Assembly: GCF_900106675.1 (NCBI RefSeq)
Contig: NZ_FNOB01000005.1
Coordinates: 1-64,000 of the forward strand
Source of the DNA: Allgaiera indica
GTDB lineage: Bacteria; Pseudomonadota; Alphaproteobacteria; Rhodobacterales; Rhodobacteraceae
Direction: 5' to 3'
DNA length: 64,000 nt
Under the pieces are notes generated by a model. It was not told where the DNA came from. It did not search any database and was given only the letters and a program-made list of their open reading frames with translations. A program made the position numbers and the translations under genes. The first letter of the stretch is position 1; each line of letters starts with the position of its first letter. Shown in pieces: positions 2,528-28,485 of this stretch.

Positions 2528-2578
2528 GCCGGTCCCCGCACAGGGCTTGTCGCGATCGAAGGTCGCCTGATCATCCGC

Positions 2579-3751
2579 CTATCCCTGCGTCACGTCGTGA
2601 CCGTAGAGCCAGTCGAACCGCTTGACCGGCGCCATGGGCATCAGCGCGCCGCCCAGCCGCAGCCCGGCATGGGCCAGCGCCCGCGTCACGCCGCGCAGGT
2701 GGTAGGCCCGGGCATTGGTGTTCGCCGCCGCCACCGCGCGCTTCACCCGCCCCTCGCGCGCCGACTGATAGGCGGCAAAGCCGGCCTCGACATTGTCGGC
2801 GCGGGCCAGGCGATCGGCCAGCACCCAGGCGTCTTCCAGCGCTAGATTGGCCCCCTGGGCCAGGAACGGCAGCGTCGGATGCGCCGCGTCGCCCAGGATG
2901 GCCGCGCCGTGGCCATGCCAGCGCGGCGCCACCGGATGCCGGAACAGCCCCCACAGATGCACCACCTCGATCTGGTCGAGCCAGTTCCTCACCTCGGGGG
3001 TGAAATCCTCGAAGCTGATCCGCGGCGCGACCGGGTCGTCCTTTTGCGCCCAGCTTTCATCGGTCCAGCGGTGGCGTTCCTCCACCGCCACGATGTTGCG
3101 CAGGGTACCATTGCGCAACGGATAGCTGACCAGATGCCGCCCGGACCCCACGAAGACCTGCGCGACCGGCTGGGCGTCGGGCTCGGCCGGAATGATCGCC
3201 CGCCAGGCCACCTGATGGGTGAAGAAGGGCGTCACCTTGCCGTTGAGCGCGCGATGCACCTGCGAATGGATCCCGTCGGCCCCCAGCAGCAGCGGCACCT
3301 CGACGGTTTCGCCGCGCGCGCACATCAGCCGGGGCGGATGATCGCCCAGCTCGATCCCCGCGATCCGCGCGTCAAGCGTGACATGCACCCCCGCCGCGCG
3401 CGCCGCCGCCGCCAGCATGTCGATCAGATCGGCCCGGTGGATGAAGTAATAGGCCTGTTCGGGACGCAGCCGCCGCAGGTTCAGCCGCAGCACCGGCGCG
3501 CCCGACGCACCGTTGCGCAGCACCACCCCGTCCGAGCGGTCTCCGATCGCCGCCAGCCGCTCTCCTAGCCCCAGGCCGCGCAGCACCGCGGCGCCGTTGG
3601 GGCTGATCTGGATGCCGGCGCCGACCTCGCGGATCGCCTCGGCCTGTTCCAGCACGGTGACCTGCGCCCCGCGCCGCGACAGCGCGATTGCGGCGGCAAG
3701 CCCCGCAACTCCTGCGCCGATGATCGTGATCTTCGTTCCCGTGACTGACAT
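2579..3751 (-). CDS. FAD-dependent aromatic monooxygenase (salicylate hydroxylase-like)
   Basis: This 390-residue class A flavoprotein monooxygenase has a GxGxxG dinucleotide fold at residues 12-17 (GAGVAG). Its LLGADGIHSQV (DG motif) lies near 155-165 and GDAAHPTLPFLAQGAN near 288-303, where flavin ribityl and pyrophosphate contacts lie. Relatives use NAD(P)H and O2 to hydroxylate aromatic acids such as salicylate or 3-hydroxybenzoate. A starting oxidation of an aromatic substrate is plausible, but the substrate cannot be read from sequence. The gene lies alone, 51 bp upstream of the CbiX gene on the same strand, with no ring-cleavage gene nearby. Confidence 0.8.
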   Translation of the reverse strand: MSVTGTKITIIGAGVAGLAAAIALSRRGAQVTVLEQAEAIREVGAGIQISPNGAAVLRGLGLGERLAAIGDRSDGVVLRNGASGAPVLRLNLRRLRPEQAYYFIHRADLIDMLAAAARAAGVHVTLDARIAGIELGDHPPRLMCARGETVEVPLLLGADGIHSQVHRALNGKVTPFFTHQVAWRAIIPAEPDAQPVAQVFVGSGRHLVSYPLRNGTLRNIVAVEERHRWTDESWAQKDDPVAPRISFEDFTPEVRNWLDQIEVVHLWGLFRHPVAPRWHGHGAAILGDAAHPTLPFLAQGANLALEDAWVLADRLARADNVEAGFAAYQSAREGRVKRAVAAANTNARAYHLRGVTRALAHAGLRLGGALMPMAPVKRFDWLYGHDVTQG

Positions 3752-4313
3752 CCCATTCCTCCGGCGACGTTGCCGTCCGCTTATGGCACATCGACATGCG
3801 GCCCGGTTTGACAGGGATCAATCGAAAGGCAAAGAGCGCGAAAGGTAAAGACGGCGCACAACCTGACGCGGCGTGAGGCCGCCCGCGCCTGCGCCCGCGG
3901 GACAATGCCTCCGGGCGCGGGGCCTCCGGGCGCGGGGCCTCCGGGCGCGGGGCCTGCGCCATTCAGCCGCCCTTGTCGCAGTTGCCGCTAGCCCGATCCG
4001 GGACGGCATTCCAGCGCCAGACCTGGAAGATGGGACACCCGGGCCGCCGCCGCGCGTTGGCCCAGACAACGCGTAGGGGCGTATTCCGGGCGGAGGTCCT
4101 GGCGGGCGTACCGGCTGCCTGTCGGGGGCTTGCGCGTGCGGCGGTCGGGGCGGGTCGTCTTGCCGCCCGCGGGCGCGCTTTCGAAAAGCCGGCGCACCGG
4201 GCACATCATATTGGGGCGCATCGCGTCGGGTCGGAACGGGGCGCATTGGAATGGGGCGCCGTGGACCGGGGTGACCGTAACGGGCGCCGCCCCTGCCATT
4301 CCCCCCCCGTCGT
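3752..4313. other. 562-bp intergenic region with short tandem repeats, no gene found
   Basis: Several open frames cross this GC-rich stretch, but none has a ribosome binding site, family resemblance or a plausible composition. It contains three tandem copies of a 15-bp unit at 3908-3952. Between about 4210 and 4265 GGGGCGC recurs several times. The promoter of the monooxygenase gene should lie at its left edge, because a relatively AT-rich patch occurs at 3780-3850. Confidence 0.5.
3908..3952. repeat. Three tandem copies of a 15-bp unit
   Basis: The unit CCTCCGGGCGCGGGG occurs perfectly at 3908-3922, 3923-3937 and 3938-3952. Identity between copies points to recent slippage. No function is evident. 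Confidence 0.9.
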
Positions 4314-4736
4314 TCAATCGTCGCGGTGAACCTTTTCGCGGCGCTCGTGCTTTTCCTGCGCTTCCAGCGTCATCGTGGCGATCGGACGGGCATCCAGCCG
4401 CTTCAGGCTGATCGGCTCTCCGGTCACTTCGCAATAGCCGTATTCGCCGTTCTCGATCCGGCGCAACGCGGCGTCGATCTTGGCGACCAGCTTGCGCTGG
4501 CGATCGCGGGTGCGCAGTTCCAGCGCCCGGTCGGTTTCCTCGCTGGCGCGGTCGGCGATGTCGGGGACGTTGCGGGCGCTGTCTTGCAGCCCTTCGATGG
4601 TTTCGGCCGACAGATCGATGATCTCGGCCTTCCAGGCATTCAGCTTGCGGCGGAAATATTCCAGCTGCCGGTCGTTCATGAACGGCTCATCCTCGGCCGG
4701 CCGGTAATCTTCGGGAAGAAAGATCTCGGGCTTCAT
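4314..4736 (-). CDS. dksA: DksA/TraR-family RNA polymerase regulator with a degenerate zinc site
   Basis: This 140-residue DksA homologue starts at ATG 4736, preceded by GAGGAGGC eight bases upstream; a longer upstream reading has no such site. DksA binds in the secondary channel of RNA polymerase and, with ppGpp, tunes rRNA and amino-acid promoters. The coiled-coil tip motif DxxDxA is intact at residues 59-64 (DIADRA). The C-terminal zinc finger is not, because only one of the four usual cysteines remains (C102 in YGYCEVTGEP). DksA forms with reduced cysteine number are known to be functional, including in Rhodobacter. The gene is divergent from the MoxR gene. Confidence 0.88.
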   Translation of the reverse strand: MKPEIFLPEDYRPAEDEPFMNDRQLEYFRRKLNAWKAEIIDLSAETIEGLQDSARNVPDIADRASEETDRALELRTRDRQRKLVAKIDAALRRIENGEYGYCEVTGEPISLKRLDARPIATMTLEAQEKHERREKVHRDD

Positions 4737-4935
4737 CTCTGCCTCCTCACTAGCGACAGAGCCAACCCGCGCGTGATCAATTCCTGGATCTTCGGTATTC
4801 GGCATCCGTCATCCCTTCGGGCGTCCCTATAGCCTCAGCAGCCCGGGTTGTCACTAGGGCACGACTTCGGTTGCGACAAAATCGGTGCGTGCTATGGTCC
4901 GTGCGAAACATCGCAGAGAAGTCTCGGGCAGCATT

Positions 4936-5778
4936 ATGAAATTTACGTCAACGGAAAGCTATGTCGCGACCGAGGATCTCAGCCTTGCCGTCGACGCCGC
5001 GGTCGCGCTGGAGCGTCCGCTGCTGGTCAAGGGCGAGCCCGGCACCGGCAAGACCGAACTGGCGCGTCAGGTGGCCGACAGCCTGGGCCTGCCAATCATC
5101 GAATGGCATGTCAAATCCACCACCCGCGCCCAGCAGGGCCTTTACGAATACGACGCCGTCAGCCGGCTGCGCGACAGCCAGCTGGGCGACGAACGCGTGC
5201 ACGACGTGGCGAACTACATCAAGAAGGGCAAGCTCTGGCAGGCGTTCGAGGCCGAGGGCCGCGTGGTGCTGCTGATCGACGAGGTCGACAAGGCCGATAT
5301 CGAATTCCCCAACGACCTGCTGCAGGAACTCGACCGGATGGAGTTCTTCGTCTACGAGACCGGCCAGACGGTGCGCGCGCGCCACCGCCCCGTCGTGATC
5401 ATCACCTCGAACAACGAAAAAGAGCTGCCCGACGCCTTCCTGCGGCGCTGTTTCTTCCACTACATTCGCTTCCCCGACCCCGACACCCTGCGCCGGATCG
5501 TCGAGGTCCACCACCCCGGCATCAAGGAGGCGCTGCTGACCGCCGCCCTGACCCGGTTCTACGAGATCCGTGAAACCCCGGGGATCAAGAAGAAGCCATC
5601 CACCAGCGAGGTACTGGACTGGCTGAAGCTGCTGCTGGCCGAGGATATGGACCCGGCCGATCTGAAGGCCGATGGCAAGAGCGCCCTGCCCCGTCTGCAC
5701 GGCGCGCTGCTGAAGAACGAACAAGACGTGCATCTGTTCGAACGCCTGGCCTTCATGGCGCGGCGCGCAGAGCGGTAG
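4936..5778 (+). CDS. MoxR-family AAA+ ATPase
   Basis: The 280-residue AAA+ ATPase has Walker A GEPGTGKT at residues 33-40, Walker B VVLLIDEVDKAD near 112-123, and sensor-1 region IITSNNEKELPDAFLRRC with the arginine finger. MoxR proteins act as chaperones that insert cofactors or mature partner complexes, usually with a von Willebrand A protein encoded next to them. No such partner follows here; a repeat-filled gap and the ABC-F gene come next. The start at 4936 was chosen because conservation begins at MKFTSTESYVATEDL; an in-frame ATG exists at 4885. The ribosome binding site is weak in either case. Confidence 0.88.
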   Translation: MKFTSTESYVATEDLSLAVDAAVALERPLLVKGEPGTGKTELARQVADSLGLPIIEWHVKSTTRAQQGLYEYDAVSRLRDSQLGDERVHDVANYIKKGKLWQAFEAEGRVVLLIDEVDKADIEFPNDLLQELDRMEFFVYETGQTVRARHRPVVIITSNNEKELPDAFLRRCFFHYIRFPDPDTLRRIVEVHHPGIKEALLTAALTRFYEIRETPGIKKKPSTSEVLDWLKLLLAEDMDPADLKADGKSALPRLHGALLKNEQDVHLFERLAFMARRAER

Positions 5779-5820: not shown

Positions 5821-6050
5821 AGTGGCGCCCCGGACAGATCCGCGGCTTCATTCATGGTGCAGCCGCCGCCCCTTAGCCCCCGCGTGACAGACAGCAGCAA
5901 AGCGCCAGCCCGTCGTGCCAGAGGCACGCCACTTTTCGTCGGCACGCCAAAGGCACCCTGCTTTTCGTCCGCACGCCTTTGGCGTGACGCGACGGGCAGG
6001 CGCTTGCCCTGCGCCTTCGGCACGCACCGGGCTCTAACGGGGCCAAGCTC
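5821..6050. repeat. Dispersed palindromic intergenic repeat, copy A
   Basis: GCGCCAGCCCGTCG at 5902-5915 pairs with CGACGGGCAGGCGC at 5990-6003, one mismatch in 14. About 75 bp lie between the arms and hold smaller hairpins such as CGTGCC/GGCACG and CACGCC/GGCGTG. The left flank (GTGGCGCCCC, then CATTCATGG) and right flank (GCACCGGGC, then ACGGGGCCAAGC) recur near 16148-16330 and 31926-32107. The element fills the gap between the MoxR and ABC-F genes. Confidence 0.6.
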
Positions 6051-6062
6051 AAACCCGGCGCG

Positions 6063-7892
6063 TCACCCCGCGGCCTTCTCCTCCAGCGTCAGCCATTCTT
6101 CTTCCGCCGCGGCCAGCATTTTCTGCCGCTCGGCCATCATCTCGGTGGCCTTCTTGAACTTCACCGGCTCGCGGCCAAACAGCTCCGGATCAGCCAGAAG
6201 CGCGCCCAGCTTGGCGATCTCGGCCTCCAGCCGCTCGATCACGGCGGGCAATTCCTCTAGCCGGTGTTTCTCTGTGAAACTAAGGCCTTGCGACGCCTTC
6301 TTCAACTGAGGTGCGGAGTCGGTCACAGGCTTCGACCCGGTTTTCGCCTCAGTCTTCACGGCGGGCTTTTCCGGTGCCTCGGCCTCGCCCCGCTGGGCGC
6401 GATAATCGCTATAGCCCCCGGCATAGACCACCGCGCGGCCATCGCCCTCCATCGCGATCGTGGTAGTGGCGACACGGTCGATGAAATCGCGATCATGGCT
6501 GACCAGCAGCACCGTGCCGTCATAGTCGCCCAGGATTTCCTGCAGCAGATCCAGGGTTTCGACATCCAGATCGTTCGTGGGCTCATCGAGCACCAGCAGG
6601 TTCGATTCCTGCGCCATCAGCCGCGCCAGCAAAAGCCGCGCCTTCTCGCCGCCCGAAAGCGCGCGCACCGGCGCCCGTGCCTGGGCCTCATCGAACAGGA
6701 AATCCTTGAGGTAGCCCACGACATGGCGCGGCACGCCCCGCACCATCACCTGATCCGACCGCCCCGAAACACGCATGGTCGGATCGTTGGTCAGGTTTTC
6801 CCAAAGGCTGGCATCGGGGGCCAGCTGCGCCCGCGTCTGATCAAACACCGCGATCTGCAGATTGGTGCCCAGCCGCACCGTGCCCGCATCCGGCGCCAGC
6901 GCCCCGGTCAGCATCTTCAGCAGCGTCGTCTTGCCCACGCCATTGGGCCCGACAAAGGCCACCCGATCCCCGCGCTGCACCTTGATCGAGAACGGCCGCA
7001 GGATAAGCTTTTCCTCGAAAGCCTTTGAAATCTCTTTCGCCTCGATCACCAACTTGCCGGATTTCTGGCCCGCGTCCAGCGCCAGCGCCGCCGTCCCCTG
7101 ACGCCGGATCTGCGCCGCCCGCTCGGTACGCAAGGCCTGCAAAGCGCGCACCCTTCCCTGGTTGCGCTTGCGCCGGGCGCTGATGCCTTCCACCGCCCAG
7201 CGGGCCTCGGCCTTGATCTTGCGGTCCAGCTTGTGACGCGCCAGATCCTCCTCTTCCCAGACGGTCTCTCGCCAGTCCTCGAACCCGTCGTACCCCTGGT
7301 CGCGGCGGCGCAGAACGCCCCGGTCAAGCCACAGCGTCGCCCGCGCCAGCGCCCGCAGAAAGGCCCGGTCGTGGCTGATCATGATAAAGGCCGAGCGGGT
7401 CTCGGCCAGCTGCGCCTCCAGCCAGCCGATCGCATCGATGTCCAGATGGTTGGTGGGCTCGTCCAGCAGCATCAGCTCCGGCGCCCGCGCCATCAGCCGC
7501 GCCAGCGCCGCGCGCCGACGCTCGCCCCCCGAGGCGGTGGCGACCGGGGTGGCAGGGTCGAACTTCAGCCCCTCGGCCGCCATCGCGACGCGGTAGTCCT
7601 CGCCCGGCTCCAACCCGTCGGCGGCGTAATCGCCCAGCGTCGTGAAGGCGGAAAGATCCGGATCCTGTTCCATATAGCCGACCGACACCCCCGGCCCCGC
7701 CACGCGGCTGCCCGCGTCAGGCTCGACCAGCCCGGCCATCAGCTTCATCAGCGTCGACTTGCCCGACCCGTTGCGCCCGACCAGCGCCAGCCGATCCCCC
7801 GGCTGCACGTTCAGATCGAGCCCGTCAAAGACCGGATCCCCCCCGAAAGTCAGAGAGATCCCGGAAAGCTGAAGAAGCGGTGCGCGTGCCAT
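6063..7892 (-). CDS. ABC-F family ATPase (Uup-like)
   Basis: This 609-residue soluble protein has two ABC domains and no membrane segments. Walker A is GRNGSGKST at 39-47 in the first domain and GPNGVGKTT near 320 in the second. The signatures are ASGGERRRA and LSGGEKARL, each followed by LLLDEPTNHLD or LVLDEPTNDLD. The two domains are joined by a charged linker. A C-terminal extension (about 520-609) is rich in Glu, Lys and Leu and looks like the coiled coil typical of Uup. ABC-F proteins bind ribosomes and resolve stalled or nicked intermediates. Uup itself is linked to precise transposon excision. The gene appears monocistronic. Confidence 0.88.
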   Translation of the reverse strand: MARAPLLQLSGISLTFGGDPVFDGLDLNVQPGDRLALVGRNGSGKSTLMKLMAGLVEPDAGSRVAGPGVSVGYMEQDPDLSAFTTLGDYAADGLEPGEDYRVAMAAEGLKFDPATPVATASGGERRRAALARLMARAPELMLLDEPTNHLDIDAIGWLEAQLAETRSAFIMISHDRAFLRALARATLWLDRGVLRRRDQGYDGFEDWRETVWEEEDLARHKLDRKIKAEARWAVEGISARRKRNQGRVRALQALRTERAAQIRRQGTAALALDAGQKSGKLVIEAKEISKAFEEKLILRPFSIKVQRGDRVAFVGPNGVGKTTLLKMLTGALAPDAGTVRLGTNLQIAVFDQTRAQLAPDASLWENLTNDPTMRVSGRSDQVMVRGVPRHVVGYLKDFLFDEAQARAPVRALSGGEKARLLLARLMAQESNLLVLDEPTNDLDVETLDLLQEILGDYDGTVLLVSHDRDFIDRVATTTIAMEGDGRAVVYAGGYSDYRAQRGEAEAPEKPAVKTEAKTGSKPVTDSAPQLKKASQGLSFTEKHRLEELPAVIERLEAEIAKLGALLADPELFGREPVKFKKATEMMAERQKMLAAAEEEWLTLEEKAAG

Positions 7893-13261: not shown

Positions 13262-14347
13262 ATGGAGAAGTCTCCCGACGCGTTCCGCACCATCAGCGAA
13301 GTGGCCGACGCCCTGGACACGCCCGCCCATGTGCTGCGGTTCTGGGAAAGCCGGTTCAGCCAGGTCAAGCCGGTGAAGCGCGCCGGCGGCCGGCGCTATT
13401 ACCGGCCGTCGGACGTGGCGCTGCTGGGCGGAATCAAACATCTTTTGCATGACGAAGGCATGACGATCCGCGGCGTGCAGAAGATGCTGCGCGAACAGGG
13501 CATCCGCCATGTCGCGGCCCTGGGCGGCGCCGATGAGCCCGGCGAGACGATCGACGCCCCGCCGCCGCTTGCCGCCCCCGAGTCCGCGCCGGTCGACAAT
13601 GTCGTGGCCATGCCCCCGGCCCGCCCCGAGCCCGCGCCCGAGGTGGAGCAATCCCCGGCCGAGGCAGCCCCGCACATTCCCGAACCCGAGGCGGAGCCTC
13701 CGCAGCCCGAGCCCCCGCACCTTGCGGCGCCCGAGGCAGAGCCCGTCCCGCAGCCCGAGCCCCCGCATCTTGCGGCGCCCGAGGCGGAACCCGCCCCGCA
13801 GCCCGAGCCCCCGCATCTTGCTCAGCCCGAGGCGGAACCCACCCCGCAGCCCGAGCCCCCGCATCTTGCCGAAGCCGAGCCGGAACCAATTCCGCAGCCC
13901 GGGGCCGAACCTTCGTCGCCGGACATGACACCGGACCTGGCACCGGACGCGGCGCCCGAATTCTCGTTCGGGGCCCCGACCGAGGCCGAGCTTGAGCAGG
14001 CATCAAGCACCACGCCCGAGCCGCGATCCGCCCCCGCCACGACGCCCGAGCCGGCCCCCGCCCCGGCCCCCGCCCCGGCCGCAGATCCCGCGCCGCAACC
14101 GCCCGGCCCGCCAAGCTGGGACGCCGCGCCGGCACCGGCGCTGACGGAAGCCACCGCGCCCGCCCTGCCCGATCTGCCGCCCGAACCGGATGATGCGGAC
14201 TTGGCCGGCCCGACCGTTGCGGCGCGTCTGCGCGCATTGCCGCCGGACGCCGCGGGCGCCGATACCGAGGCATTGGCCATGCTGGCGGACCGGCTGAAGG
14301 CCTTGCGCCACAAGATGGCCGGTCACGCGCGGCGCAGCCACGGATGA
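13262..14347 (+). CDS. MerR-family regulator with long Pro/Glu-rich repeat region
   Basis: Residues 8-80 form a MerR-type winged helix: [23 protein letters not shown], then a [14 protein letters not shown] wing and [13 protein letters not shown]. This small regulator follows ihfA in most alphaproteobacteria. Beyond residue 90 the protein is disordered. Four tandem 15-16-residue units with PQPEPPHLA (residues about 142-204) are followed by a Pro/Ala-rich stretch, and a short conserved C-terminal helix ([18 protein letters not shown]) ends it. At 361 residues it is longer than usual because of the repeats. No effector-binding cysteines are seen. Targets unknown. Confidence 0.85.
13685..13873 (+). 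repeat. 48-bp coding tandem repeats in the MerR-type gene
   Basis: About four units of 45-48 bp encode [15 protein letters not shown] with small changes. The units are multiples of three, so copy number can change without a frameshift. Confidence 0.85.
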
Positions 14348-25716: not shown

Positions 25717-26697
25717 TCACAACCGTGGCGGCGCGGCGGCTTTTGAGCGCAATCCAACGGATCGCAGCATCGCCCCGCCTTCGGTTCGCGGCGCAGCCGG
25801 AACCCGGGCCGCGCCCGGCTGTGCCTCGTTGCGGGCGCCGAAGGTGACGTAGAAGCCCGCCAGCGTCACGATCGCGGCGCCGATATAGATATCATGCGCC
25901 GGCATGTCGCCGAAGACGACGTAACCCAGTGCCAGCAATGCAAAGAACTGCAAGTTCACCACCGGCGTCACCACCATCGCCGGCGCCCGCGAGAACGCCG
26001 CCGCCAGAGCCATCTTGCCCAACAGGAAGCCCATCCCGAAGGTGATGGTCAGCGCGATTTGCGGCAGGCTCATCGGCACAAGCTGCCCCGGCAATGCCAG
26101 GCCCATGATCAGTGCCAGCGCAAGCTGCGGGTAGAACACCAGCGCTGCGGCATTGCGCTCATGCCGGCCGATCCGCCGCGCCAGCGTCAGCGACAGCGCC
26201 CCGAAAAGGCTGCCGGCCAGCGCCATGCCGCCCCACAGCAGATCGCCGCTGCCCGGCATCGGCATGGCCATCGCCACCCCCAGCGTCGAGGCCGCCAGCG
26301 CCAGCCAATGCCGCGGCGCCACGCGTTCCCCCAGAAGCGGGCCCGACATCAGCCCGGCAAAAATCGGCAGCGTCGAGGCGAAAACGAACACCTCGGTCAA
26401 TTGCAGGTTCTTGTAGGCCAGGAAGAAGCTGACCGCCGCCGCCACGGCGCTGAGCGCGCGCAGCGCCATCGCGCCGGGAAAGGCGGTACGCAGCCCGCCA
26501 CCGCCGCCGAACGCCCCCGCGCGGCTAAGCGCCCAGGCCCCGACGATCCCCACGACGGCCGCCAGGAAGTTCACCTGCGCCAGGGGCAATTCGCCCCCCA
26601 GCACCTTCGCCAGCATGTCGGTCGTCGCCGTCAGCGCGACCGCCACCAGGGCCAGGAATGACCCCGAAATCGCTTGTTTGCGGCTGATCGTGGTCAT
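25717..26697 (-). CDS. EamA/DMT-superfamily exporter, third gene of the repeat-protein operon
   Basis: A 326-residue membrane protein with ten hydrophobic segments in two EamA halves (ISGSFLALVAVALTATTDML at the start; LFGALSLTLARR at the middle boundary). Members export small metabolites such as amino acids or their derivatives. The ATG at 26697 has GGAGAGG six bases upstream and overlaps the preceding gene's stop by 4 bases (ATGA). It is therefore translationally coupled to the unknown 369-residue protein and, through it, to the repeat protein. Substrate unknown. A role in moving a product of that operon is inference. Confidence 0.85.
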   Translation of the reverse strand: MTTISRKQAISGSFLALVAVALTATTDMLAKVLGGELPLAQVNFLAAVVGIVGAWALSRAGAFGGGGGLRTAFPGAMALRALSAVAAAVSFFLAYKNLQLTEVFVFASTLPIFAGLMSGPLLGERVAPRHWLALAASTLGVAMAMPMPGSGDLLWGGMALAGSLFGALSLTLARRIGRHERNAAALVFYPQLALALIMGLALPGQLVPMSLPQIALTITFGMGFLLGKMALAAAFSRAPAMVVTPVVNLQFFALLALGYVVFGDMPAHDIYIGAAIVTLAGFYVTFGARNEAQPGAARVPAAPRTEGGAMLRSVGLRSKAAAPPRL

Positions 26698-27803
26698 TTC
26701 GAACCTCTCCACCCTCGTCCTCTATAGCAGAAACCGGCAAGGAATTCATCGAATTGTGGAGTCGAAGATGCGGCACTCGCCAATACGTTGCGTCCGCGGC
26801 GTGACATCAACCCCGCCGATGCCTCCATCAGCGCGCCGACGCTGAGCCGGCCGGCCTGGGCCAAGGCCAGCAGGATCTCGGACAATTCGACCAGCGTGTT
26901 GCGTGGCGCCGGGCGCCGCCGGAAGACCAGCCGCCCGGGCCGCGCCGCCCGCGCGAAGGCCGGCTGCCCCGCCACCGCCTGATGCCAATTGGCAACCAGG
27001 AACGGGTGGTAATCGTCCGATAGCGCGCCGCTGTCCTCGGGCTCTTCGCTGATGACCGAGAAATCCGCGAGTTCCGAGGCGATGAAGGCCTCCCACGCGG
27101 GGGGTGGCGTGCGGCCCATGTAGCGCAGGGCGATGCAGACCTCGGACAGCAGATCTATGTCTTCCTCGAGCAATGCGATCAGGCCCGTGTTCAGCAGGCT
27201 CTTGCCCACGCTTCCTGGCAGATCGGGGGATCGGCGCCCGTATTCCGAAAAATAGAACACGAAATGCGTCAGGTCATAGGCGGCCTTGCGGTTGGGCACG
27301 GCGAAAGCCTGATGCCGGGTCACGAAGCGCAGCACGCGCTCTTCCAGGGTCGTGTCGTCCTTCAGCACCGTCACGCCGTGGCGGGCGCACAGCCGGCGGG
27401 CCTCCATCCGGTGCAGATCGGACAGTTCGGCCTCTGCCAGGCCCCGCGCCGCCACCTCAGCCGCGATCCGCCCCCCGGTGCCGGGCGGCAGGCCCAGGGC
27501 CTCGGCATCGGTCACGATCGACAGGATGAAGCGGTAATATTGCGGAAAGACGGCAAAAAACCCGGGCGCTTCGGCGTGAAACGCCCGGTAGTGCTTGCCA
27601 AGCGCCGGCGTCCGGCCCAAGCCCGTACATTCGGCGATGTTCAGAAGCTCTGCGTTTTCTTTCAGAAACATCACGTCGTGCCGTCCCCGGCGGTGATGCA
27701 GGAACGCCTCGGCCAGGGGCACAAGCCCCGGCCGGGCAGCCCGGCGCCTTGCCCGAGACAAGGCGCTGGTTGCATCTGTGACCGCGTAGGGCAGCAAGAC
27801 CAT
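26694..27803 (-). CDS. Protein of unknown function encoded with the STSSF-repeat protein
   Basis: A 369-residue protein without signal peptide or membrane segments and with largely helical composition. I do not recognise a catalytic motif. From memory, Rhodobacteraceae carry a domain of unknown function (possibly DUF6902) of this type; this is not verified. Distinctive stretches are FLHHRRGRHDVMFLKENAEL (34-53), PGFFAVFPQYYRFILSIV (78-95) and RYMGRTPPPAWEAF near 228-241. It starts 5 bases after the repeat-protein stop, and its GAGGAG lies very close to the ATG. The stop overlaps the EamA start. A role in modifying, handling or sensing the repeat protein is possible but unproven. Confidence 0.6.
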   Translation of the reverse strand: MVLLPYAVTDATSALSRARRRAARPGLVPLAEAFLHHRRGRHDVMFLKENAELLNIAECTGLGRTPALGKHYRAFHAEAPGFFAVFPQYYRFILSIVTDAEALGLPPGTGGRIAAEVAARGLAEAELSDLHRMEARRLCARHGVTVLKDDTTLEERVLRFVTRHQAFAVPNRKAAYDLTHFVFYFSEYGRRSPDLPGSVGKSLLNTGLIALLEEDIDLLSEVCIALRYMGRTPPPAWEAFIASELADFSVISEEPEDSGALSDDYHPFLVANWHQAVAGQPAFARAARPGRLVFRRRPAPRNTLVELSEILLALAQAGRLSVGALMEASAGLMSRRGRNVLASAASSTPQFDEFLAGFCYRGRGWRGSK

Positions 27804-27808
27804 GCTCC

Positions 27809-28270
27809 TCAGCCGGCTTTCTTCGGGCCGAAGGACGAGGTCGAGAATTGCGTGCCCGCGCCCGCAAGCGCGTCGGTCCCGGTATCGACGAAGGAAGAGG
27901 TCGAAAGCATCGTCGCCTCGCCGCTGTCCATCGTGGTCGCGCTGGGACCGAAGGACGAGGTCGAGAACTGCGTGCCCTCGCCCGCAAGCGCGCCGGTCCC
28001 GGTGTCGACGAAGGAAGAGGTCGAAAGCATCGTCGCCTCGCCGCTGTCCATCGTGGTCGCGCCGGCCACGAAGGACGAGGTCGAGAACTGCGTGCCTTCG
28101 CCGCCCATCAGGCTGCTCCCCGAACAGGCAAAGGAAGAGGTCGACAGCGATGCGCCTTCACCCGCGAACAGGTTTCCGGCCATCTGCCGCGGCGCTTGCG
28201 TCGTGCCAGATACAACCTTAGCGAAAGTCTTCGCTGCGATAGACAAATTATTGTTTTCATACACTTCCAT
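27809..28270 (-). CDS. STSSF-repeat protein, candidate peptide precursor
   Basis: A 153-residue protein. Residues 1-40 form a non-repetitive N-terminus (EVYENNNLSIAAKTFAKVVS). Six units of exactly 20 residues follow, each with STSSF at 43, 63, 83, 103, 123 and 143. Spacers alternate between two types: ATTMDSGEATML, and a GTxALAGxGTQF form. One Cys only, in the first unit. There is no signal peptide or membrane segment. The ATG at 28270 has GGAGAGGG five bases upstream; an in-frame ATG lies at 28285. It resembles a leader plus repeated cores, as in multi-core ribosomal peptides, but it could equally be a structural repeat protein. A family name such as DUF6749 is possible from memory, unverified. 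Confidence 0.75.
   Translation of the reverse strand: MEVYENNNLSIAAKTFAKVVSGTTQAPRQMAGNLFAGEGASLSTSSFACSGSSLMGGEGTQFSTSSFVAGATTMDSGEATMLSTSSFVDTGTGALAGEGTQFSTSSFGPSATTMDSGEATMLSTSSFVDTGTDALAGAGTQFSTSSFGPKKAG
27830..28144 (-). repeat. 60-bp coding repeats with a 120-bp higher-order unit
   Basis: AAGGACGAGG or AAGGAAGAGG recurs exactly every 60 bp at 27831, 27891, 27951, 28011, 28071 and 28131. Two 120-bp blocks (27831-27950 and 27951-28070) are nearly identical, which points to recent duplication. All six reading frames stay largely open because the unit is a multiple of three. Confidence 0.9.
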
Positions 28271-28485
28271 GAATTCCCTCTCCATTTTACAACCTTAACG
28301 AGAATCAGCTTCATAGCGGCTAACTCAACCTATGGTAGCACGATAATCCAGCAATCCCATCGTTTTTGTTTCCGAACCGGAAACGCCGGCGCACGGGCGG
28401 CGCGCTGAACGGCACATTGACCGCCGCGCTTGCCGGCGGGCGTCCAAGCGGCTAGGACGGGTCGAAACGGAGCTGGGAGGCGCGG

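Follow-up and report, generated by a model that had tools for sequence, protein, structure and literature searches.

The window, that is, the whole 64,000-nucleotide stretch of the Allgaiera indica genome that was analyzed, contains three genes, referred to here as P1, P2, and P3, which all lie on the minus strand and form one unit (Table 1). P1 and P2 are separated by a gap of 5 bases, and the start of P3 overlaps the stop of P2 as ATGA; the coordinates thus agree with the three tightly spaced same-strand genes of the original prediction. P1 is preceded by the Shine-Dalgarno-like sequence GGAGAGGG, and an alternative in-frame ATG upstream, at position 28285, would give a product of 158 residues. 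The operon consists of the genes for P1, a DUF6902 protein, and an EamA transporter only and encodes no protease. Lasso B protease and C cyclase genes are likewise absent from it, the flanking genes being xth, erpA, and a dGTPase gene, and a Pfam search of the operon found no ATP-grasp, YcaO, or PatA/G-type enzyme and no UstYa/DUF3328 protein. Elsewhere in the window, positions 13637-14082 are occupied by tandem repeats rich in proline and glutamate (periods 24, 48, and 96 bp), which are unrelated to the operon.

Table 1. Features of the operon (positions in the window) and open reading frames upstream of DUF6895 genes (positions in the locus named)
Feature	Sequence	Position	Strand	Description
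P3	Window	25717..26697	-	EamA/DMT-type transporter; ATG at 26697; proposed exporter of released peptide
P2	Window	26694..27803	-	DUF6902 protein, 369 residues, all-alpha; candidate core-modifying enzyme (putative epimerase)
P1	Window	27809..28270	-	Open reading frame, ATG at 28270, 153 residues; putative multi-core precursor
Core 6	Window	27830..27844	-	STSSF, then GPKKAG and stop; sequence and core analysis
Core 5	Window	27890..27904	-	STSSF; sequence and core analysis
Core 4	Window	27950..27964	-	STSSF; sequence and core analysis
Core 3	Window	28010..28024	-	STSSF; sequence and core analysis
Core 2	Window	28070..28084	-	STSSF; sequence and core analysis
Core 1	Window	28130..28144	-	STSSF; sequence and core analysis
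Shine-Dalgarno-like site	Window	28277..28284	-	Precedes the P1 start at 28270; read from the sequence
ORF upstream of DUF6895	L090	7251-7850		
ORF upstream of DUF6895	L091	7907-8338		
ORF upstream of DUF6895	L092	6425-6910		
ORF upstream of DUF6895	L104	4849-5259		
ORF upstream of DUF6895	L105	6840-7076		
ORF upstream of DUF6895	L107	7690-7896		
ORF upstream of DUF6895	L108	5371-5631		
ORF upstream of DUF6895	L109	5209-5472		

The P1 product begins with an N-terminal leader-like region of about 40 residues, followed by six units of 20 residues, each with an exact STSSF core. These had been described as six exact 20-residue repeats; the six STSSF copies are indeed spaced at exactly 20 residues, but the units around them differ and only STSSF is exact. 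At the DNA level, TRF gave tandem periods of 120 and 60 bp (scores 487 and 213), the period of 120 bp being the strongest because two unit types alternate and form a 40-residue super-repeat, in which units 1 and 2 are the most divergent. The array is far beyond chance, and the same architecture recurs in dozens of genomes. Searches of Pfam and NCBIfam with P1 and the other repeat proteins returned no family, the matches being low-complexity chance matches only. P1 shows no evident hydrophobic signal peptide, no dibasic sites lie between the cores of the window precursor, and the precursors as a set contain no obvious cleavage motif except the [A/G]P after the core. A second precursor was searched for within the same genome and not found.

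Among 150 Rhodobacteraceae genomes, sampled at one per genus, 46 encode a DUF6902 protein, and a profile made of two repeat units and run against all 150 genomes matched 42 of these 46 and none of the other 104. The DUF6902 genomes missed by the profile are G039 (locus L077), which holds a diverged remnant, G140, which holds a fragment at a contig edge, and two with divergent precursors of two cores each that were recognized on reading the loci (L076, with YIAGL, and L071, with MMCCS). Wide loci were fetched for 44 DUF6902 genomes, the contig-edge fragment being left out and the window serving as the 45th; neighbor counts were taken from 45 loci, namely 43 of the sample together with L001 and L002. 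Every intact DUF6902 copy examined has a repeat precursor directly upstream on the same strand, at a distance of 5-343 nt that is mostly about 50-75 nt (5 nt in the window). The chromosomal site beside xth and erpA is conserved, with xth on the opposite strand in 41 of the 45 loci and erpA and the dGTPase gene each found in 39, some of the absences being contig ends. P3 itself contains two EamA domain stretches (Pfam, E=1.5e-10), as expected of the DMT-type exporter that had been proposed, and an EamA gene lies on the same strand downstream of DUF6902 in 35/45 loci and is absent in 9 to 10/45. Several loci are truly without it, because dGTPase or erpA comes at once, which indicates that the exporter is common and not essential to the unit. 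The usual substrates of EamA proteins are small metabolites. The original prediction had made its case for a system depend on linkage of the repeat protein to its neighbors in other genomes and had raised the question of a variable repeat number; the linkage is found, and repeat numbers across Rhodobacteraceae range from 2 to 20.

The remnant in L077 (positions 5902-6999) lies between xth and erpA without precursor or EamA and looks like decay of the system. A separate observation concerns the region upstream of the precursor, where the 9-mer TGTGGATAA, which is the DnaA-box sequence TTATCCACA reversed, is concentrated. The 549 kb of locus sequence contain 40 copies, every one of them upstream of the precursor; they are spread over 24 loci, stand about 95 and 170 bp ahead of the start codon, and are often paired at 76 or 53 bp. 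The loci concerned range from L034 to L074 (e.g. L034, L037, L038, L047, L048, L060, and L061), whereas neither the window nor L001 has the 9-mer, which may reflect control by DnaA or another regulator.

The repeat units share the form G-[D/E]-x-x-x-x, a five-residue core, and an [A/G]-P-linker, the pair after an internal core being mostly [A/G]P. Across 47 precursors (window, L001, L002, L094, and the rest of the set), a rule allowing one mismatch identified 329 core copies, of which 309 are exact. Core spacing is 19-22 residues with few exceptions, and there are no double-length gaps of 40 residues, which shows that the one-mismatch rule did not miss a unit. The exceptions include a few spacings of 8 residues: L041 and L094 carry extra cores at this distance (FTSGLVQMFTSGL, FSSGLVQLFSSGL), a feature that may be relevant to the way in which enzyme or protease moves along the chain. 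Copies within a protein differ at 1.8% of amino acids in the core, against 31% in the six preceding residues and 49% in the spacer, whereas synonymous differences among identical residues are 37, 37, and 39%, respectively. This equal synonymous divergence means that the copies are old enough for silent drift and that the core is kept by purifying selection, not by recent copying. Between proteins the picture is one of turnover, with 26 different cores among the 47 precursors (for example FTSGS, FSSGS, FTSWS, FVSWS, FTNWC, FTSCA, FCSAS, FITSC, FTTSM, MMCCS, YIAGL, and STSSF) and the whole core identical in 5% of protein pairs. On a tree of 42 DUF6902 proteins, most inner branches of which are poorly supported, the core label changes 30 times, against a minimum of 24 and a shuffled mean of 32.9 (values as low in 3/200 shuffles), so cores are weakly inherited along the tree. 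Even supported sisters differ, as in L052 (FVSWS) and L055 (FTSWS). The window groups with L001 on a long, separate branch with the core STSSF, and the three members of the genus that have the gene (window, G477, and G1014) agree on the core; the G477 precursor carries STSSF, and L001, apparently the same genome as G1014, has STSSF beside ATSSF variants. In 28 of the 47 precursors the protein ends with the fifth residue of the last core, and this residue is likely to be the C terminus of the product.

P2 belongs to the Pfam family DUF6902 (PF21843), which it matches over residues 21-359 with an E value of 3.4e-107 (358.8 bits against a cut-off of 27), and it also matches DUF6895 above threshold (E=5.1e-18; 65.9 bits against a cut-off of 23.8). 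The two families are related at the profile level: hhalign, comparing a profile of 42 DUF6902 proteins with six proteins from other families that had been retrieved as DUF6895, gave a probability of 92.7 and an E value of 4.2e-7, with about 18% identity over 148 aligned columns. One of the six, L090, was translated in the wrong frame, which adds noise to the DUF6895 profile. The 369-residue protein, for which the original prediction recognized no family, is thus not a member of a well-known unrelated enzyme family but a DUF6902 protein homologous to DUF6895. A lasso-peptide epimerase in the DUF6895 family is announced in the title of Shi et al. (2026, ACS Catal.), cited in PMC13352647. AlphaFold2 predicts for P2 a confident all-alpha fold (pLDDT 90.3, pTM 0.90). 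A comparison with PDB sequences revealed no solved relative, and a Foldseek search of the PDB gave no match at E<=0.001; the only suggestive hit, complement C4d, was rejected as a fold relative (TM 0.37, E 0.58, not significant). A literature search for DUF6902 found no paper, and a search of plasmids with P2 gave no match. In an alignment with eight DUF6895 proteins drawn from several phyla, E52, Y176, T179, H180, G189, D217, E221, Y265, and H266 are common to 8/8 DUF6895 proteins and to at least 41/42 DUF6902 proteins, and E126 is kept in 7/8 DUF6895 proteins; a set of Glu, His, Asp, Glu, and His is invariant in all eight and all 42. The nine common residues, two histidines among them, are putative active-site residues.

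DUF6895 genes in other classes and phyla are found in a similar setting. They lie directly after small open reading frames of leader-core-like appearance in Streptomyces, Bacillota, Gemmatimonadota, and proteobacteria (Table 1). The plasmid search with a DUF6895 query gave matches in Streptomyces, Pseudalkalibacillus, and Gemmatirosa. The frame preceding the Streptomyces gene encodes 68 residues (...ILRKSGILNTDTTLNQLLE...LIGPWYAYHT...), and small frames, some of which carry two units in tandem or as duplicates, also precede DUF6895 in Pseudalkalibacillus, Gemmatirosa, and several proteobacteria. The DUF6895-linked products of several phyla are about 66-87 residues long with a single core-like tail, and many share a leader-like "aGIl..tLdqLle" and an aromatic tail (GPWYAYH, GPWFVL, or WTFVSPNYVYKG). 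The small frames apparently form an undescribed peptide class of their own. The annotation shows no lasso B or C genes next to the Streptomyces and Pseudalkalibacillus copies of DUF6895. In L103, positions 2539-5250 encode a protein of 903 residues in which an APH-like kinase domain comes after DUF6895, and a frame of 128 residues lies upstream. The small frames before DUF6895 support a general partnership between a precursor and a DUF6895/DUF6902 protein, within which the Rhodobacteraceae branch evolved multi-core precursors.

Our results suggest that the operon is probably a multi-core pentapeptide system of the RiPP type, in which P2 modifies the cores, probably by epimerization, a protease from outside the operon releases them, and P3 usually exports the product. 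As in RiPP systems generally, the locus encodes a candidate precursor, with a leader-like region and constant cores, next to a candidate modifying enzyme, and the layout proposed at the outset, of a leader with multiple cores, a modifying protein, and an exporter, draws support from the linkage, the DUF6902 homology, and the variable repeat number. P1 would be the precursor, with its N-terminal leader-like stretch and repeated core units, to which P2 would bind so as to modify every core in turn. By homology to DUF6895, for which the activity is taken from the title cited above, the modification would most likely be an L-to-D epimerization of a core residue, with acid/base chemistry perhaps arranged around the invariant H180, D217, E221, and H266 together with E52. 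A protease encoded elsewhere would then excise the cores, and the EamA-family P3 would export the small product. We hold the peptide-producing part of this scheme with more confidence than the scheme as a whole, whereas our judgment on the epimerase step assigned to P2 is about evenly balanced. The core is fixed within a genome yet differs even from one sister lineage to the next, which makes it probable that the product works by specific recognition, as a peptide signal or an inhibitor with a narrow target would.

The reading that departs least from this scheme keeps P1 as a precursor and gives P2 another task, such as cyclization, dehydration, or isomerization away from the C-alpha, or the binding or processing of the precursor, the DUF6895 epimerase then being a specialized outlier. 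The low identity between DUF6902 and DUF6895 in the aligned part leaves room for it, as does the fact that the DUF6895 activity comes from a title, and cores contain much Ser, Thr, and Cys, on which other chemistries usually act. On the other hand, the invariance of Glu, His, Asp, Glu, and His across both families suggests one chemistry, and some cores, such as YIAGL, contain little or no Ser, Thr, or Cys. Judged from the sequences, epimerization appears more likely than Ser/Thr chemistry, and we consider a different role for P2 a serious but clearly less probable alternative.

The main rival of the peptide reading takes P1 as a mature beta-solenoid-like scaffold, adhesin, or binding protein, with P2 as a dedicated modifying or folding partner and P3 loosely associated, so that the pentapeptide would be a ligand-binding or stacking motif and not a released product. 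The best AlphaFold2 model of P1 (pLDDT 66.6, pTM 0.59) has two strands per 20-residue unit and a pLDDT of about 70-83 in the array, a beta-repeat fold of moderate model confidence; the operon has no protease, and some loci have no EamA. That model, however, is one of five, the other four having pLDDT values of 46-58, and P1 has no evident hydrophobic signal peptide. Precursors with 2-3 units in 57-78 residues (L068, L071, and L075) offer few units for a solenoid, a packed repeat would not usually keep its core constant while the spacers drift freely, and the homologous DUF6895 pairs in several phyla with short single-core products, so a structural protein is an unlikely explanation. The original prediction had offered as its alternative a self-assembling repeat protein with unrelated neighbors; the structural half keeps the moderate support of the beta-repeat model, whereas the other half fails on co-occurrence. 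Three unrelated genes brought together by chance could in principle be held in place by vertical inheritance alone, given the conserved site beside xth and erpA. The precursor and DUF6902, however, co-occur across the sample (42/46 against 0/104 genomes), on which ground this reading was rejected; the DUF6902 remnant of G039, which has no precursor, also lacks EamA, and DUF6895 pairs with small frames at unrelated sites in other phyla. We regard chance neighborhood as extremely improbable.

If the multi-core peptide reading is true, about 30% of the sampled genera of Rhodobacteraceae, a family abundant in aquatic habitats, produce a modified pentapeptide specific to their lineage. It would have escaped notice because no domain marks its precursor and its enzyme falls in a DUF family. 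Bacteria would gain a multi-core RiPP class, two Pfam DUFs would gain a substrate and product hypothesis, and enzymes able to place D-residues in short peptides would become available. The pattern of a core constant within and variable between genomes makes a signaling or specific-target role directly testable. More speculatively, and with considerable doubt, the core might constitute a lineage-specific pentapeptide "dialect," carried in 2-20 copies per precursor, epimerized by DUF6902, released by EamA, and acting like a pheromone as a bacterial analog of yeast alpha-factor, in a new RiPP class that DUF6895 and DUF6902 would together define.

Among known systems, the fungal dikaritins (ustiloxin and phomopsin) and yeast alpha-factor derive from repetitive precursors with many copies of a short core (PMC9233826), and MslH is the epimerase of the C-terminal Trp of the lasso peptide MS-271 (PMC10406935). 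The dikaritins and alpha-factor resemble the P1 system in their repetitive multi-core precursor, and the dikaritins also in having a dedicated modifying enzyme; the P1 system, however, is bacterial, has no Kex2-like dibasic sites between cores and no UstYa/DUF3328 protein, and would use an EamA exporter instead of the secretory pathway. With MslH it would share a D-residue in a ribosomal peptide and possibly an acid/base logic, but P2 has no sequence match to any solved structure and no fold match at E<=0.001 and hence is not of the same family. In bacteria, graspetides (microviridin and plesiocin) and cyanobactins are multi-core RiPPs in which one leader serves several cores. The P1 system has this arrangement too, whereas its cores are identical within a protein and five residues long and its operon encodes none of the ATP-grasp, YcaO, or PatA/G-type enzymes. 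The DUF6895 lasso-peptide epimerase, as far as its title describes it, is alike in that P2 is homologous to that family above the Pfam cut-off, has the same invariant residues, and is paired with a precursor gene; it differs in that the P1 operon is without lasso B and C genes, that DUF6902 forms a Pfam family of its own with about 18% identity over the aligned part, and that P1 carries multiple pentapeptide cores rather than a single lasso core. No repeat RiPP of Rhodobacteraceae emerged from a literature search, and neither the combination nor the pentapeptide cores nor the DUF6902 enzyme appears to have been described in the sources searched. Although its parts resemble known kinds, namely RiPP loci and multi-core precursors, there is a real chance that the system founds a new RiPP class.
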